From the NCBI GenBank assembly GCA_024694365.1, contig JAILJX010000093.1:1-64000 (forward strand): a DNA stretch of 64,000 nt. Reading direction: 5' to 3'. The stretch is from Kiritimatiellia bacterium. Its GTDB lineage: Bacteria > Verrucomicrobiota > Kiritimatiellia > RFP12 > UBA1067. Under the pieces are notes generated by a model, which searched no databases, was not told the origin of the DNA, and saw nothing but the letters and a program-made list of their open reading frames with translations. The translations under genes and the position numbers were made by a program. Below, one piece after another: positions 4,811-9,045 of this stretch. The number at the start of each line of letters is the position of its first letter. Position 1 is the stretch's first letter.

Positions 4811-6280
4811 CTAAAAGCGGAGAATCAGGCTTTCATCATCGGAGAAGGCGTTCGAATCCTCGAGCCTCCGCCGCAGGGCGCCGAAATCGTCCGCCTTCAT
4901 AAGCCGGCTGAAATCCCAAAGTCTGCCCATCGCCTCCACAAGCACCGACGCTTCTCCTTCGCGGGAGAGCTTTCGCAGGGCTCCGATGTAATCGGGCCGG
5001 AATACGGTCGGGACGATTATCTTTGCGCGGCCCGCAGCTACGAGTTCCGCGTTCATCATTATGCGGGATATGCGTCCGTTCCCGTCGGCGAAGGGATGCA
5101 CTTCGCTCGTGACAAAAAGCGAAAAAACAGCCCTGGCGAATGGATGCCGCAAGCAGCGCGACATGTCGAAAGCCCTTTTCAAAGTCCCTCTGACGCGCTC
5201 GGGAGCGACAAAATGCGTCTCGCCGGCCCTGTTCTCCCTCGTCTTGAACATGCCGGGCCTGCTCGACGGGCGACCCGACATGACAACCCTGTGGCGCCCG
5301 CGCAGAATATCGAGAAACTCTTCGCCCGTCTTCGCCTGCCGCGACATTTCAAGGCGATTTGAGGCTATCGCGTAAGTTCCGAGGATATCGTGGCTGTCGG
5401 CATCGCGCTGAGGAATCGCAACGCCGGTCTCCACAATGCGACGCGCCTCGTCAAGCTCAAATTCCGTTCCCTCGATACAATTCGAGAAATAGCTTTCGAA
5501 AAAAGCGAACGTCGAGAAAGCCCTGTCCGTGACGTTGACTTCCGCCCAATCGGGGAAATCCATCCTCGCAAGCCTCTCTATAAGCCGGCCGAATATATCT
5601 ATCCTAGGGCTGTCGAACGGCTCTCCCGCAGCCCGGGCCAGCGCGACAGGGGAATTGAGGACATCGACCGGGCGCGTCGACTGCAGCGCCCCCGCAATGC
5701 GGTCAAGCCGCGAAAACTCTGCGCCGTGTCCGGTCGCGAGGGCGACGGCGCGCGCTTCATCGCGCAACTTGTTGAGCGCGGCTTCTCCACCCGCGGCCAA
5801 CACGGCTTCAAGCCGTTCTTCAACGGCCTCGATTCCGGCACTCTTCCGGACGCCACCCTGAGTCCGGTCCGGCTCCAGATTCTCCAAAAGCGCCCGCGCA
5901 TGCGAAGATACGCCGAGCCCTTCCATGAACGGGTAATCGGAGTCTAGCGATGCGGGCGTCGCCAGAAAGTGGATGACCACACCGGGCAGAGCGACCTTCT
6001 TCGTATACTTATAGGCGAGAAAGACATGTCCGTCATGCGGCGCATATTCCAGCGCAGTGCGGTGGCACAGCCTGGCCCCCGGCCAAAGGCGGCCGACAAT
6101 CGTCCAAAGATTGCGCCGGACGATGTTTTCTGGAGAATCGGTAAGATTCGTGGTATAAACGCGACTAGCCAGCTTTACGACCCGACCTTGCTGCTTTAGG
6201 CTGGACAGCAATTTAGCGATGTCGGGCCTTGTCGACCCGATTATTACTTCGTTAAGAATCTGTAGTTTTTTTTCTAACAT
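4811..6280 (-). CDS. Fic-domain protein with an N-terminal winged-helix-like region
   Basis: This 489-residue protein carries the Fic signature HPFADGNGR at residues 395-403. Fic enzymes usually transfer AMP, or sometimes another phosphate-containing group, to target hydroxyls. An inhibitory motif of the form S/TxxxE(G/N) is visible as S266-NCI-E270-G271, ahead of the Fic core, so this looks like a self-inhibited class II Fic protein. Residues 1-100 resemble the AbiEi/COG5340-type winged-helix region found in type IV antitoxins; this is a weaker call. ATG 6280 has AAGAAGG upstream and a 29-base gap to a TGGTATAAT box. It lies downstream of a nucleotidyltransferase gene, suggesting a defence or toxin-like module. 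Confidence 0.85.
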   Translation of the reverse strand: MLEKKLQILNEVIIGSTRPDIAKLLSSLKQQGRVVKLASRVYTTNLTDSPENIVRRNLWTIVGRLWPGARLCHRTALEYAPHDGHVFLAYKYTKKVALPGVVIHFLATPASLDSDYPFMEGLGVSSHARALLENLEPDRTQGGVRKSAGIEAVEERLEAVLAAGGEAALNKLRDEARAVALATGHGAEFSRLDRIAGALQSTRPVDVLNSPVALARAAGEPFDSPRIDIFGRLIERLARMDFPDWAEVNVTDRAFSTFAFFESYFSNCIEGTEFELDEARRIVETGVAIPQRDADSHDILGTYAIASNRLEMSRQAKTGEEFLDILRGRHRVVMSGRPSSRPGMFKTRENRAGETHFVAPERVRGTLKRAFDMSRCLRHPFARAVFSLFVTSEVHPFADGNGRISRIMMNAELVAAGRAKIIVPTVFRPDYIGALRKLSREGEASVLVEAMGRLWDFSRLMKADDFGALRRRLEDSNAFSDDESLILRF

Positions 6281-6288
6281 CAGCCTTC

Positions 6289-6374
6289 TTTCGGCAATAT
6301 TTTTCCAACATTATACCATATTTCGGGTATAACTTTCCATCATGAACTGATTTTCGGCAATATTTTTCCAACAT
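6289..6374. repeat. 23-bp perfect direct repeat around the Fic gene start
   Basis: The same 23 bases, beginning TTTCGGCAATATTTTTCC, occur at 6289-6311 and 6352-6374, 63 bases apart. On the minus strand each copy begins ATGTTGGAAAAA, close to the real Fic start (ATGTTAGAAAAA). The -10 box at 6310-6318 directly abuts the first copy. The repeats may be binding sites for the N-terminal winged-helix region, or traces of a local duplication of the gene start. Confidence 0.75.
6310..6318 (-). promoter_or_regulatory. extended -10 (TGGTATAAT) for the Fic gene
   Basis: TGGTATAAT ends 29 bases before ATG 6280. The leader contains AAGAAGG, a good ribosome-binding site. The box lies between the two 23-bp repeats and overlaps the end of the first. 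Confidence 0.6.
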
Positions 6375-6562
6375 CAGGCTGGAGATATGCCGAATTTCGG
6401 CGAGCGTTCGCCGGCGAAAGCCTTCCTCAGCCTAGCCTCGGCGCTGCCGAAACCGGTCTTCCGCCGCGAAGGCGCATCAAGGCCGAGAGCCCTGAGCCTC
6501 GCGCGCTTCGCTTCGCGCGAAGCCTTCCATTCTTCCCAGCCTATGACTATCTGCCTAGCCAC
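6374..6562 (-). CDS. Small basic protein coupled to a nucleotidyltransferase
   Basis: I propose a 62-residue product starting at GTG 6562, which overlaps the upstream gene's TAG stop by 8 bases (GTGGCTAG). The protein is strongly basic (WKASREAKRARLRALG) and has no recognisable domain. It lies between the nucleotidyltransferase and the Fic gene on the same strand, so it may be a third partner of that module. Its stop falls exactly at the distal 23-bp repeat. It could instead be a decayed tail or a non-coding stretch. Confidence 0.4.
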   Translation of the reverse strand: MARQIVIGWEEWKASREAKRARLRALGLDAPSRRKTGFGSAEARLRKAFAGERSPKFGISPA

Positions 6563-7136
6563 GTGAAATCTCCTCTTTGAGAGCCCTGAGCTCCGGCAGA
6601 ATCTTGAAGCCGGGGAGCGCCGCGAGCCGCTCCGCCTCACCCCAGTCGAAGTCCGAATCGGCGAGCGCCGCCGCCATCATCTGCCTCGCGGACGCGATGC
6701 ATTCCTTGTCCTGGGCGGCATACAGAACGCGCTCGACGAGTGCGTGTTCCGGCGGAAGGATGCGGACGTCGCCATATGGGGTGGAGAGGACCCTCTCGGC
6801 GAGGACAGTCTCGGATTCGAGAATGCCGAGAATATCGACATAGAGCCCGCAAATGATCCAATTCCGGCCGAGGCCCTTCCCTCCCAGCGACTCGGCGATT
6901 TCCTGCATGAGGCGCTGCGGTATGGCGCGGAGCGACTTTCGGCAGAAATCGATGTCGCCGCTCATGTAACCGCCCTCGGTATAGAATTCGACTGCGCTGC
7001 CGCCGACGACAACAAGCGGGAAACCGCGCTCCTGAAAGAGCGTGGTCACGAGTCCCGAGAGCTTCAAGGCGCGCTCCAGGAGATCGCCGGTCGCTTCGAT
7101 GTCGCGCCTGGCCTCATTTAGCCGAATTGCATCCAT
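6555..7136 (-). CDS. Nucleotidyltransferase-fold protein (AbiEii/DUF6036-like)
   Basis: This 193-residue protein shows the minimal nucleotidyltransferase signature: GGS at residues 45-47 followed by SGDIDF, with the metal-binding aspartates at 61 and 63. Such proteins are often the toxin half of type IV or MNT/HEPN-like toxin-antitoxin pairs, or are accessory nucleotidyltransferases. ATG 7136 is 9 bases from a TGGTAAAAT box, so the leader is at most two or three bases. It is followed by a small overlapping gene and then the Fic gene. The target is unknown, and assignment to AbiEii proper would need a profile search. Confidence 0.65.
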   Translation of the reverse strand: MDAIRLNEARRDIEATGDLLERALKLSGLVTTLFQERGFPLVVVGGSAVEFYTEGGYMSGDIDFCRKSLRAIPQRLMQEIAESLGGKGLGRNWIICGLYVDILGILESETVLAERVLSTPYGDVRILPPEHALVERVLYAAQDKECIASARQMMAAALADSDFDWGEAERLAALPGFKILPELRALKEEISRG

Positions 7137-7239: not shown

Positions 7240-7395
7240 TTATTGGGCGAGATTGTTCCATCTTACCCCATCAACAGATAGGCCTGTTGCATTGGCAAGT
7301 TCCGCCAATGTGACATCTGGCATAGAACGCATCACGTCCAATATTTTGTCACTGTTTTTCTTGGTAGTTTTCTTGGTAGTTTTCCGACCCTTCAT
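7240..7395 (-). CDS. Short helix-turn-helix protein coupled to the transposase (possibly truncated)
   Basis: This 51-residue product has a lysine-rich start (KGRKTTKKTTKK) followed by a winged-helix start, ILDVMRSMPDVTLAELANATGLSVDGVRW. It stops just after the recognition helix, where related domains continue with a two-strand wing. ATG 7395 overlaps the transposase stop as TGATG, so it is translationally coupled. It may bind DNA for the transposase, or be the cut-down remnant of a longer domain. The 100 bases downstream do not obviously restore the wing. Confidence 0.5.
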   Translation of the reverse strand: MKGRKTTKKTTKKNSDKILDVMRSMPDVTLAELANATGLSVDGVRWNNLAQ

Positions 7396-8681
7396 CAAAA
7401 AGCCGCGCTGGTTTGAATGACGTGCGGTCCGTCGGCCATCCAATAGAGAGCGAGCCCTTCGCAGGCTGTCGCGATTTCTATTATCTCCGCGTTCAGGTCG
7501 AGGCAGGCGGCGCGGCCAAACTCGGTTTCGTCGTTTCCGCGCGCTATTTCAAGATAGCGGTTTTCCGCAAAAGGCTCTATGTAGCCACTCTCCGGCTTGA
7601 AGCGGCGGTTCGGCAGGGAGGAAGGCAGTATCCGTATGAAACGCGCGTCGCGTCTTCGCAAAAGCATATCTTTCACGGCCCTCTCGCCCTTTGAAATGAA
7701 GCCGCTTATGATCACGTAGCCTTTGTCGACCGCGCGCTCCATTCTTCTGACGACCTTCGCAATCGCCTCGGGAGAATCTACCTTGCGGGAAACACGAAGC
7801 GAAACGAGCCTCTCGCCAGGCGAAAGAAGCCCGACATCGCCGACACCCTTCCAGTAATCGCCTATGGCCAGCCTCGGAGAGGAGAGAGGCTCGACAACCC
7901 TAAGGCCGCCTTGAGCGCCATACATAAGCTGCCATTTCAGGGGATTGTAGGCGATGTATCGCTCGGTCGAGTCTATCATCTCGCGCGAGACAAGAAGATA
8001 GTCATGATAGCCCTGCTGCCAAAGGCGGGTTTGGCAGGGTTGGCCAAACACAGTTTGGCCATCAGGGCTAGACGAGGCGCTAGACGAGGCGCTAGACGGA
8101 GCGCTAGACGAGGCGCTAGACGGAGCGCAGAACAAAGCGCTAGACGGAGCGCAGAACGAAGCGCTAGACGGGGCGCAGAACGGGGCGCAGAACGAGGCGC
8201 TAGACGGAGCGCAGAACGAGGCGCGGGGCGGAGCGCAGAACGAGGCGCTAGACGGAGCGCAGAACGGGGCGCGGGGCGAGGCGCTGGAGGGGGCTCGGGG
8301 CGGGGCGGAGCCAGCCTGGAAGGCAGAACTGCGTTCTGCCATATCCCGCTTCAGCAACGCCGTAGTATGGTTCTTGAAACGCCTTATCGCGAAGCCAAGA
8401 AGCTTAAGCGGATCTTCCAGCCCCGGAGCGAGCGAGCAGTTGAAATGAATATGATCGGGCATGACCACGCGCCCGAAAAGCCCAAGCCCGCGATTAAGCC
8501 TCGGCATGGCTTCAAGCGCCCCGGCGACCATCTCGCCAAAAGGCGAAAGCCTCATCCTGCCGCCGGCTATTTCGCCGAAAAGCCGCCTTCTCGGCTCGGT
8601 CGCTACAGTGATGAAAAGCGAAGCGCCTTTCGAATAATCCCAGCCGGAGAACCGGCGATAGCGCAGGATCGGCGCGGCCAT
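7395..8681 (-). CDS. REP-associated (Y1/HuH) transposase with repeat insert and extra C-terminal domain
   Basis: This 428-residue protein starts as a REP-associated tyrosine transposase (RAYT, IS200-like Y1 fold). The HuH metal site is MPDHIHF at residues 74-80, and the region carrying the expected catalytic tyrosine is RYIAYNPLKW. Such enzymes nick and join single-stranded DNA at hairpins. Two things are unusual. A low-complexity block of four-residue units (such as SSAS and FCAP) from about residue 127 to 205 interrupts the domain. After the Y1 fold there are about 170 further residues (from GERLVSLRVSRK) that look like a Rossmann/SLOG- or DprA-like domain, a tentative reading. It lies 4 bases behind the DUF486 gene. 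Confidence 0.75.
   Translation of the reverse strand: MAAPILRYRRFSGWDYSKGASLFITVATEPRRRLFGEIAGGRMRLSPFGEMVAGALEAMPRLNRGLGLFGRVVMPDHIHFNCSLAPGLEDPLKLLGFAIRRFKNHTTALLKRDMAERSSAFQAGSAPPRAPSSASPRAPFCAPSSASFCAPPRASFCAPSSASFCAPFCAPSSASFCAPSSALFCAPSSASSSAPSSASSSASSSPDGQTVFGQPCQTRLWQQGYHDYLLVSREMIDSTERYIAYNPLKWQLMYGAQGGLRVVEPLSSPRLAIGDYWKGVGDVGLLSPGERLVSLRVSRKVDSPEAIAKVVRRMERAVDKGYVIISGFISKGERAVKDMLLRRRDARFIRILPSSLPNRRFKPESGYIEPFAENRYLEIARGNDETEFGRAACLDLNAEIIEIATACEGLALYWMADGPHVIQTSAAF
8041..8061. repeat. Perfect 9-bp inverted repeat with 3-base loop
   Basis: TGGCCAAAC-ACA-GTTTGGCCA forms a short hairpin inside the transposase gene, next to the 12-bp repeat tract. REP-associated transposases recognise hairpins of this general kind, so it could be a target-like site; it could also be chance in coding DNA. 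Confidence 0.6.
8067..8312. repeat. 12-bp tandem repeat tract inside the transposase gene
   Basis: About twenty degenerate copies of 12-bp units such as GCGCTAGACGGA and GCGCAGAACGAG run head to tail. Because the unit is a multiple of three, copy-number changes keep the reading frame and vary only the length of a linker in the protein. Confidence 0.85.
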
Positions 8682-8685
8682 TGCG

Positions 8686-9045
8686 CTAAAGATTCGCCCT
8701 GTTGACGAAGTAGACGGCGGCGACCATGCAAAGAAGTGCCCAGAGGTAATCCCAGCGCCATTTCTCGCCCATGAAGAGAATCATGAACGGAACGAAGACG
8801 CAGACCGTCACGACTTCCTGTATTATCTTGAGCTGCGCGACATTCAGCCCCGCGTTGGCGCCAATCCTGTTGGCGGGAACGGCTATCATATACTCGACGA
8901 GCGCTATCGCCCAACTGACGAGTATTATCGCTATGAGAGGCCAGGCCGAGGCGCCCGGCTTCTGCAGGCGCAGGTGCCAGTACCATGCAAACGTCATGAA
9001 AAGATTGCTCGCGACAAGCATCGCGACAGTTATGGCAACGCCCAT
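8686..9045 (-). CDS. DMT-type small membrane protein (DUF486)
   Basis: This 119-residue protein has four hydrophobic segments and matches the DUF486/DMT-superfamily small membrane proteins, whose transported substrate is not established. The first helix is VAITVAMLVASNLFMTFAWYW-like and the last ends at AALCMVAAVYF-like residues before a basic tail. It lies 16 bases after the shortened LamG gene and 4 bases before the transposase, so all three could share the transcript starting at 9394. I see no promoter of its own. Confidence 0.75.
   Translation of the reverse strand: MGVAITVAMLVASNLFMTFAWYWHLRLQKPGASAWPLIAIILVSWAIALVEYMIAVPANRIGANAGLNVAQLKIIQEVVTVCVFVPFMILFMGEKWRWDYLWALLCMVAAVYFVNRANL

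Follow-up and report, generated by a model that had tools for sequence, protein, structure and literature searches.

This locus raises the question of what kind of protein is encoded by a REP-type transposase gene whose core is interrupted by repeats and followed by a long extra C-terminal region. The gene lies in the window, by which we mean the whole 64,000-nucleotide stretch, from a contig of a Kiritimatiellia gut bacterium, that was analysed. A sequence-only reading had described it as a Y1/HUH transposase split by four-residue repeats, with about 170 further residues that look SLOG/DprA-like, and had suggested that the combination would be a new architecture. Our favoured answer, in which we have about equal belief and doubt, is that the protein would be a domesticated chromosomal HUH hairpin nickase of the RAYT type with a built-in DprA-type domain that binds single-stranded DNA or a nucleotide. 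The anatomy behind this answer is well supported; from it we infer that the core recognises and nicks hairpins, that the tail binds single-stranded DNA or a nucleotide, and that the two activities are coupled.

The open reading frame is real and encodes a RAYT-type (TnpAREP) Y1/HUH transposase (Table 1). The HUH motif lies in MPDHIHF (residues 74-80) and the catalytic-type tyrosine in ERYIAYNP, and H77, H79, W221, Y242, N246 and P247 show no variation across 34 sequences. AlphaFold2, run on the 34-sequence alignment, models the core confidently (strands at residues 20-28, 66-73, 77-84 and 226-229, helix 91-123, tyrosine helix 233-254), and Foldseek matches the core of the full model to the ISDra2 and IS608 transposases and to E. 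coli TnpAREP (4er8). A Pfam search with the window protein alone returned no match. The NCBIfam model of REP-associated tyrosine transposases (NF047646, REP_Tyr_transpos) scored 43.2 bits (E 3.4e-11; best-scoring stretch residues 215-252), short of its curated cut-off of 80 bits, and it matched 34 of 34 relatives below E 0.01. Its match stops at residue 252, which places the tail, of the length originally claimed, outside the standard RAYT model. The split of the core by the repeat region is equally visible: pLDDT falls below 50 over residues 134-211 in the AlphaFold2 model, and the distance from HUH to Tyr, at 168 residues against a common insert-free length of 66, is the longest among 53 tail-bearing relatives.

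Table 1. Parts of the transposase gene, with positions in the window
Feature	Position	Strand	Basis
Whole gene: 428 aa, split Y1/HUH transposase core and C-terminal DprA-like domain	7395..8681	-	ATG start
N-terminal half of Y1 core, residues 1-123 (beta1-beta3 and helix alphaC)	8313..8681	-	AlphaFold2; Foldseek match to ISDra2, TnpAREP 4er8, IS608
HUH motif H77-I-H79	8445..8453	-	Invariant histidines
REP-like palindrome 1, GGCAGAAC-GCA-GTTCTGCC, read as MAERSSAF	8321..8341	-	
Linker insert, disordered, alphaC to beta4, bounded by both palindromes	8041..8341	-	pLDDT <50; HUH-Tyr distance
12-bp tandem array, ~18 copies, four-residue repeats (APSS/ASFC type)	8067..8285	-	Tandem Repeats Finder
REP-like palindrome 2, TGGCCAAAC-TGT-GTTTGGCCA, read as DGQTVFGQ, other frame than palindrome 1	8041..8061	-	
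C-terminal half of Y1 core: W221, beta4, helix alphaD with Tyr	7920..8024	-	AlphaFold2; invariance; NF047646 match 215-252
Presumed catalytic Y242 in Y-x-x-x-N-P	7956..7958	-	Invariant
DprA-type Rossmann (SLOG superfamily) domain, residues ~262-421	7419..7898	-	Profile search; profile-profile alignment; Foldseek; VIA-align; AlphaFold2

The repeat that fills the linker is genuine, with a period of 12 and Tandem Repeats Finder scores between 158 and 206 for periods from 12 to 48, but the linker is better read as in-frame REP-like palindromes around an expanded spacer than as a plain protein repeat. At each end of it stands a perfect palindrome with a 3-base loop, and the two fit TGGCNNAACNNNGTTNNGCCA (0 and 1 mismatches). 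At up to 2 mismatches this pattern occurs 3 times in the window against 0.12 expected by chance, and 10 times in the gene's own genome against 4 for a reversed control; both genomic copies at 0-1 mismatch lie inside the RAYT gene, with none outside it. The linker strand folds as single-stranded DNA much better than its shuffles (z -4.65). The 12-bp array is a single locus, with no match elsewhere in the genome at E <= 0.1, and is missing from the closest relatives. Its units resemble, by reading, the sequence beside the palindromes, which suggests that the array may have arisen by tandem slippage of the spacer between them. Over the array, on the opposite strand, runs an open frame of 264 aa (7911-8705, +) with many GARR/SARR repeats, which most likely exists because the array contains no stops.

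The same arrangement is seen well beyond this gene. Linkers of tail-bearing genes contain 29 hairpins (stem >=8) in 4.2 kb, compared with 39 in the 52.6 kb outside linkers, many of these near gene ends; this corresponds to 6.9 per kb in linkers versus 0.74 in the rest of the genes, and codon-shuffled linkers would be expected to hold 0.66 hairpins rather than 29. Across 40 related genomes we found 18 exact copies of the palindrome, most of them within a RAYT gene or a short way from one. Translation passes through the palindrome in two different frames (8 and 11 cases), so it is the DNA and not the peptide that is conserved, and for this reason we rejected the idea that the linker is a motif conserved at the protein level. 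Where palindromes are paired, their TTGA-type flanks often face each other, inverted, as in REPINs (by reading). Prevotellaceae members carry different palindromes, GTAG/CTAC-tagged in some of them, in linkers at the same position as in the window gene, and two members have them again a little downstream of the gene. The long linkers require 10 changes on the tree, and the HUH-to-Tyr distance ranges from 56 to 168 residues across the 53 tail-bearing genes.

None of this amounts to a high-copy REP family, a possibility that we rejected: unlike classical REPs, the window palindromes carry no GTAG tag, their genome does not contain them in many scattered copies, and palindromes are few in other genomes too. 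In this the gene is unlike the RAYT subclasses that have REPtrons, with their GTAG-tagged dispersed REPs, a feature not common to all subclasses.

The second unusual part of the protein, its tail, is well supported as a DprA-like domain with a DprA-type Rossmann fold, judging from alignments and predicted structures. It is predicted to be ordered rather than disordered: modelled alone by AlphaFold2 it reaches pLDDT 92.4 and pTM 0.89, and most of it exceeds pLDDT 90 in the full-length model. Since in a single-protein phmmer search of solved structures nothing but the low-complexity linker matched, by chance, a profile was needed to find DprA; with a profile of 31 tails, H. pylori DprA were the sole significant relatives (E ~6e-5; next 0.25). 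All 14 Foldseek matches below E 0.001 were ShosA or DprA (E 3e-6 to 7e-4), and VIA-align placed ShosA first (Z 13.8, rmsd 3.0, 149 aligned), followed by DprA (Z 10.1-12.0), YpsA (7.3) and LOG proteins (below 7). When profiles of the tail and of DprA from the same order were aligned, they stayed in register over 117 columns (E 9e-4), yet with a low reported probability of 23%; the alignment extends from G281/LL by way of SGFISKGE (on SGLALGID) as far as the conserved N397 (on RN of DprA). The suspected SLOG/DprA likeness thus held in all four of these comparisons. The Pfam DprA family (PF02481) did not match the window protein at gathering score and matched 2 of 34 relatives (best E 0.061).

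PsyrA and ShosA belong to toxin-antitoxin pairs and are DprA-like, and the rank of ShosA as the closest solved fold (Z 13.8) speaks for a rival explanation that we consider doubtful. Here, a ShosA/PsyrA-like or other SLOG ligand-binding tail would sense a nucleotide or a phage-related DNA structure and switch on the HUH nuclease, making the protein a regulated nuclease, possibly in defence, and not a mobiliser of REPs. The PADLOC PsyrA model does match 2 of 34 members (best E 1.2e-7), and the small number of palindromes gives no sign of mass REP mobilisation. Against it, the in-gene palindromes tie the gene to a REP-type substrate, and no phosphoribosyltransferase-like toxin gene, the feature of ShosTA and PsyrTA, adjoins the RAYT gene. 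The tail also differs from ShosA and PsyrA in its fusion to a transposase core. The neighbours of the gene are a DUF486 membrane-protein gene (8686-9045), which ends 4 bases before the start of the frame, and a gene for a nucleotidyltransferase-like protein. A conserved operon partner was also sought and rejected, as none of the 4 tested neighbours was seen beside relatives.

The surroundings hold some features of their own. The nucleotidyltransferase-like protein (6555-7136, -; weak DUF2204 match, E 0.037) adjoins a gene for a 489-aa protein (4811-6280, -) with a Fic domain at its C-terminus and an N-terminal part that resembles, by eye, an AbiEi-type winged helix; the two genes may form an AbiE-like pair built around a Fic protein. 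Between the two genes lies a 31-bp tandem repeat of 3.5 copies (6269-6376).

In the tail, G281, R299, S330, E333, R375, R390 and N397 are conserved, with G281, S330 and E333 invariant in 31 tails. In H. pylori DprA, Arg52, Lys137 and Arg143 are reported to be crucial for binding single-stranded DNA (PMC4489622). The first of these, at the GxR position, aligns with R299, which 28 of 31 tails keep and which stands in a VSR context, and the second with R390, kept in 26 of 29 tails. At the position of Arg143 stands the non-basic L396, so that the third DNA-binding residue is lost, and the SGxAxGID loop of DprA reads SGFISKGE, with S330 and E333 invariant instead. Because of the lost arginine and the replacement of GID by KGE, binding of single-stranded DNA by the tail is not assured.

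The two retained contact residues and the DprA fold also speak for a distinctly unlikely alternative, namely that the domain acts as a RecA mediator, loading RecA onto the strand that the transposase lays bare and so coupling REP nicking to homologous repair or REP gene conversion. DprA is known to load RecA in other systems (PMC12386762), but the genome of the window has a standalone DprA of its own.

The fusion itself stands as proposed, and it is no one-off: when the same fusion was sought in relatives, it proved to belong to a widespread lineage of at least 53 sampled genes with core and tail in Kiritimatiellota, Lentisphaerota, Akkermansia and Prevotellaceae (named genomes: Kiritimatiellae, Lentisphaerae/Victivallales, Akkermansia muciniphila and Prevotellaceae), recurring across rumen Kiritimatiellota and Prevotella relatives. 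In Flavobacteriales and others, the core occurs without the tail. The window's genome alone has five DprA-tailed RAYT genes (C111, C77, C55, C81 and C125); 36 of the 58 genomes searched (its own and those of relatives) match the protein, and 80 of 388 genomes in a phylum sample match the tail profile at 1e-5, the weaker ones of which may be true DprA. Placing the tail on a tree of 82 cores requires 4 changes, and a single clade is not rejected (p 0.099), so that a single origin of the fusion would be compatible with the tree. Searches of plasmids, phages and viral contigs, the plasmid and phage searches with a Prevotella member as query, found no relative, and a plasmid or phage element is therefore not supported.

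Several members of this wider set depart from the common plan. One of the DprA-tailed RAYTs of the window's genome (L159, G000 C81:600-3600) has a peptide repeat, APQEHDGxEGAQKI, between core and tail and not inside the core. Four others (L099, L119, L121 and L004, from Lentisphaerae, Kiritimatiellia, Verrucomicrobia and the window's genome) carry a second, divergent tail type (SGFLSPxE, WCNQY), which may be an independent fusion. An Oscillospiraceae gene (L123:2320-3213) joins, by eye, a RAYT core and a ribonuclease H-like domain in the same open frame.

For the pairs in which it could be estimated, dN/dS is about 0.1 (0.06-0.24) in core and in tail, with dS near saturation in many pairs, and these sequence comparisons indicate that both parts are under purifying selection. 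Such conservation already disfavours a very unlikely last alternative, in which the tail would be no more than a structural remnant, and the linker simple slippage or an assembly artefact unrelated to REP biology: the array is indeed limited to the window gene, and repeat number can be misjudged in metagenome assemblies, but the tail has a dN/dS of about 0.1 and invariant S330 and E333 in 31 sequences, and linker hairpins are tenfold enriched in many genera, with the same linker position in Prevotellaceae.

The closest known systems include the class 2 TnpA-Y1 proteins (RAYT/TnpAREP). Quentin et al. 2018 (PMC6006769) divide these proteins into three classes and 12 subclasses. With class 2 as described there, the window gene shares HUH, the tryptophan and Y-x-x-x-N-P, a chromosomal location, low copy and divergent paralogs, and it has REP-like hairpins in or beside the gene (two in its linker; enriched in relatives); it differs in its long DprA-like C-terminal domain and its alphaC-beta4 insert. 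Subclass 2.4 (Bertels group 4) likewise combines a variable insert with REPs inside the transposase gene. There, however, the insert lies between beta3 and alphaC, whereas ours follows alphaC (91-123) and precedes beta4 (226-229); the HUH motif is NH[IFV]H and not DHIH; and no C-terminal domain is described. The C-terminal tails reported there are HTH/Bac_DnaA_C in subclass 2.1 and a specific tail in 2.3, and a DprA-like tail is described neither in the text covered nor in the other papers found. Our literature search, which covered subscription literature only in part, found no published description of a DprA-RAYT fusion. In-frame REPs in REP-transposase genes were already known from subclass 2.4, in another loop and without the tail. 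In-frame REPs are also known from other genes (PMC3733652); like those insertions in Rickettsia and Opitutus, our palindromes are read through as protein, but they sit in the transposase's own gene, in one loop and in many genera. As for the tail, it shares with DprA/Smf (H. pylori 4ljr, S. pneumoniae 3uqz) the Rossmann fold in register, the GxR arginine, the second basic residue and the terminal N, and differs in its fusion to a nuclease, in having neither a SAM nor a DML1 domain, and in GID having become xGE and R143 being lost.

TnpAREP cuts single-stranded REP hairpins in vitro (PMC8266576). In a RAYT-type hairpin nickase with a DprA-type domain, the core would recognise the cognate hairpin, in this lineage TGGCCRAAC-NNN-GTTYGGCCA, in single-stranded DNA, nick beside it and rejoin the strands, while the DprA-like domain, directly after the tyrosine helix, would grip the adjacent single strand or, alternatively, bind a nucleotide ligand that gates the reaction. 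The in-gene palindromes would be copies of the protein's own substrate that entered the alphaC-beta4 loop in frame and are accommodated there as a disordered tether, and slippage of the spacer that separates them would have given rise to the 12-bp array seen in this species. Through the hairpins in the gene, the protein could also bind to its own gene or transcript. We regard as rather doubtful a further step, in which the DprA-type module would bind the exposed strand and hand it to RecA, so that REP nicking would be coupled to recombination, with the in-frame cognate REPs as a built-in regulatory target.

What RAYTs, as widespread domesticated transposases, do for the cell is an open question. 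A common version with a DprA-like domain offers a concrete lead on partners, be it single-stranded DNA, RecA or a nucleotide ligand, and one that can be followed with a single protein. Furthermore, in-frame palindromes inside the transposase gene, present in many genera, mean that the likely substrate of such a protein may be read from the sequence of its own gene.
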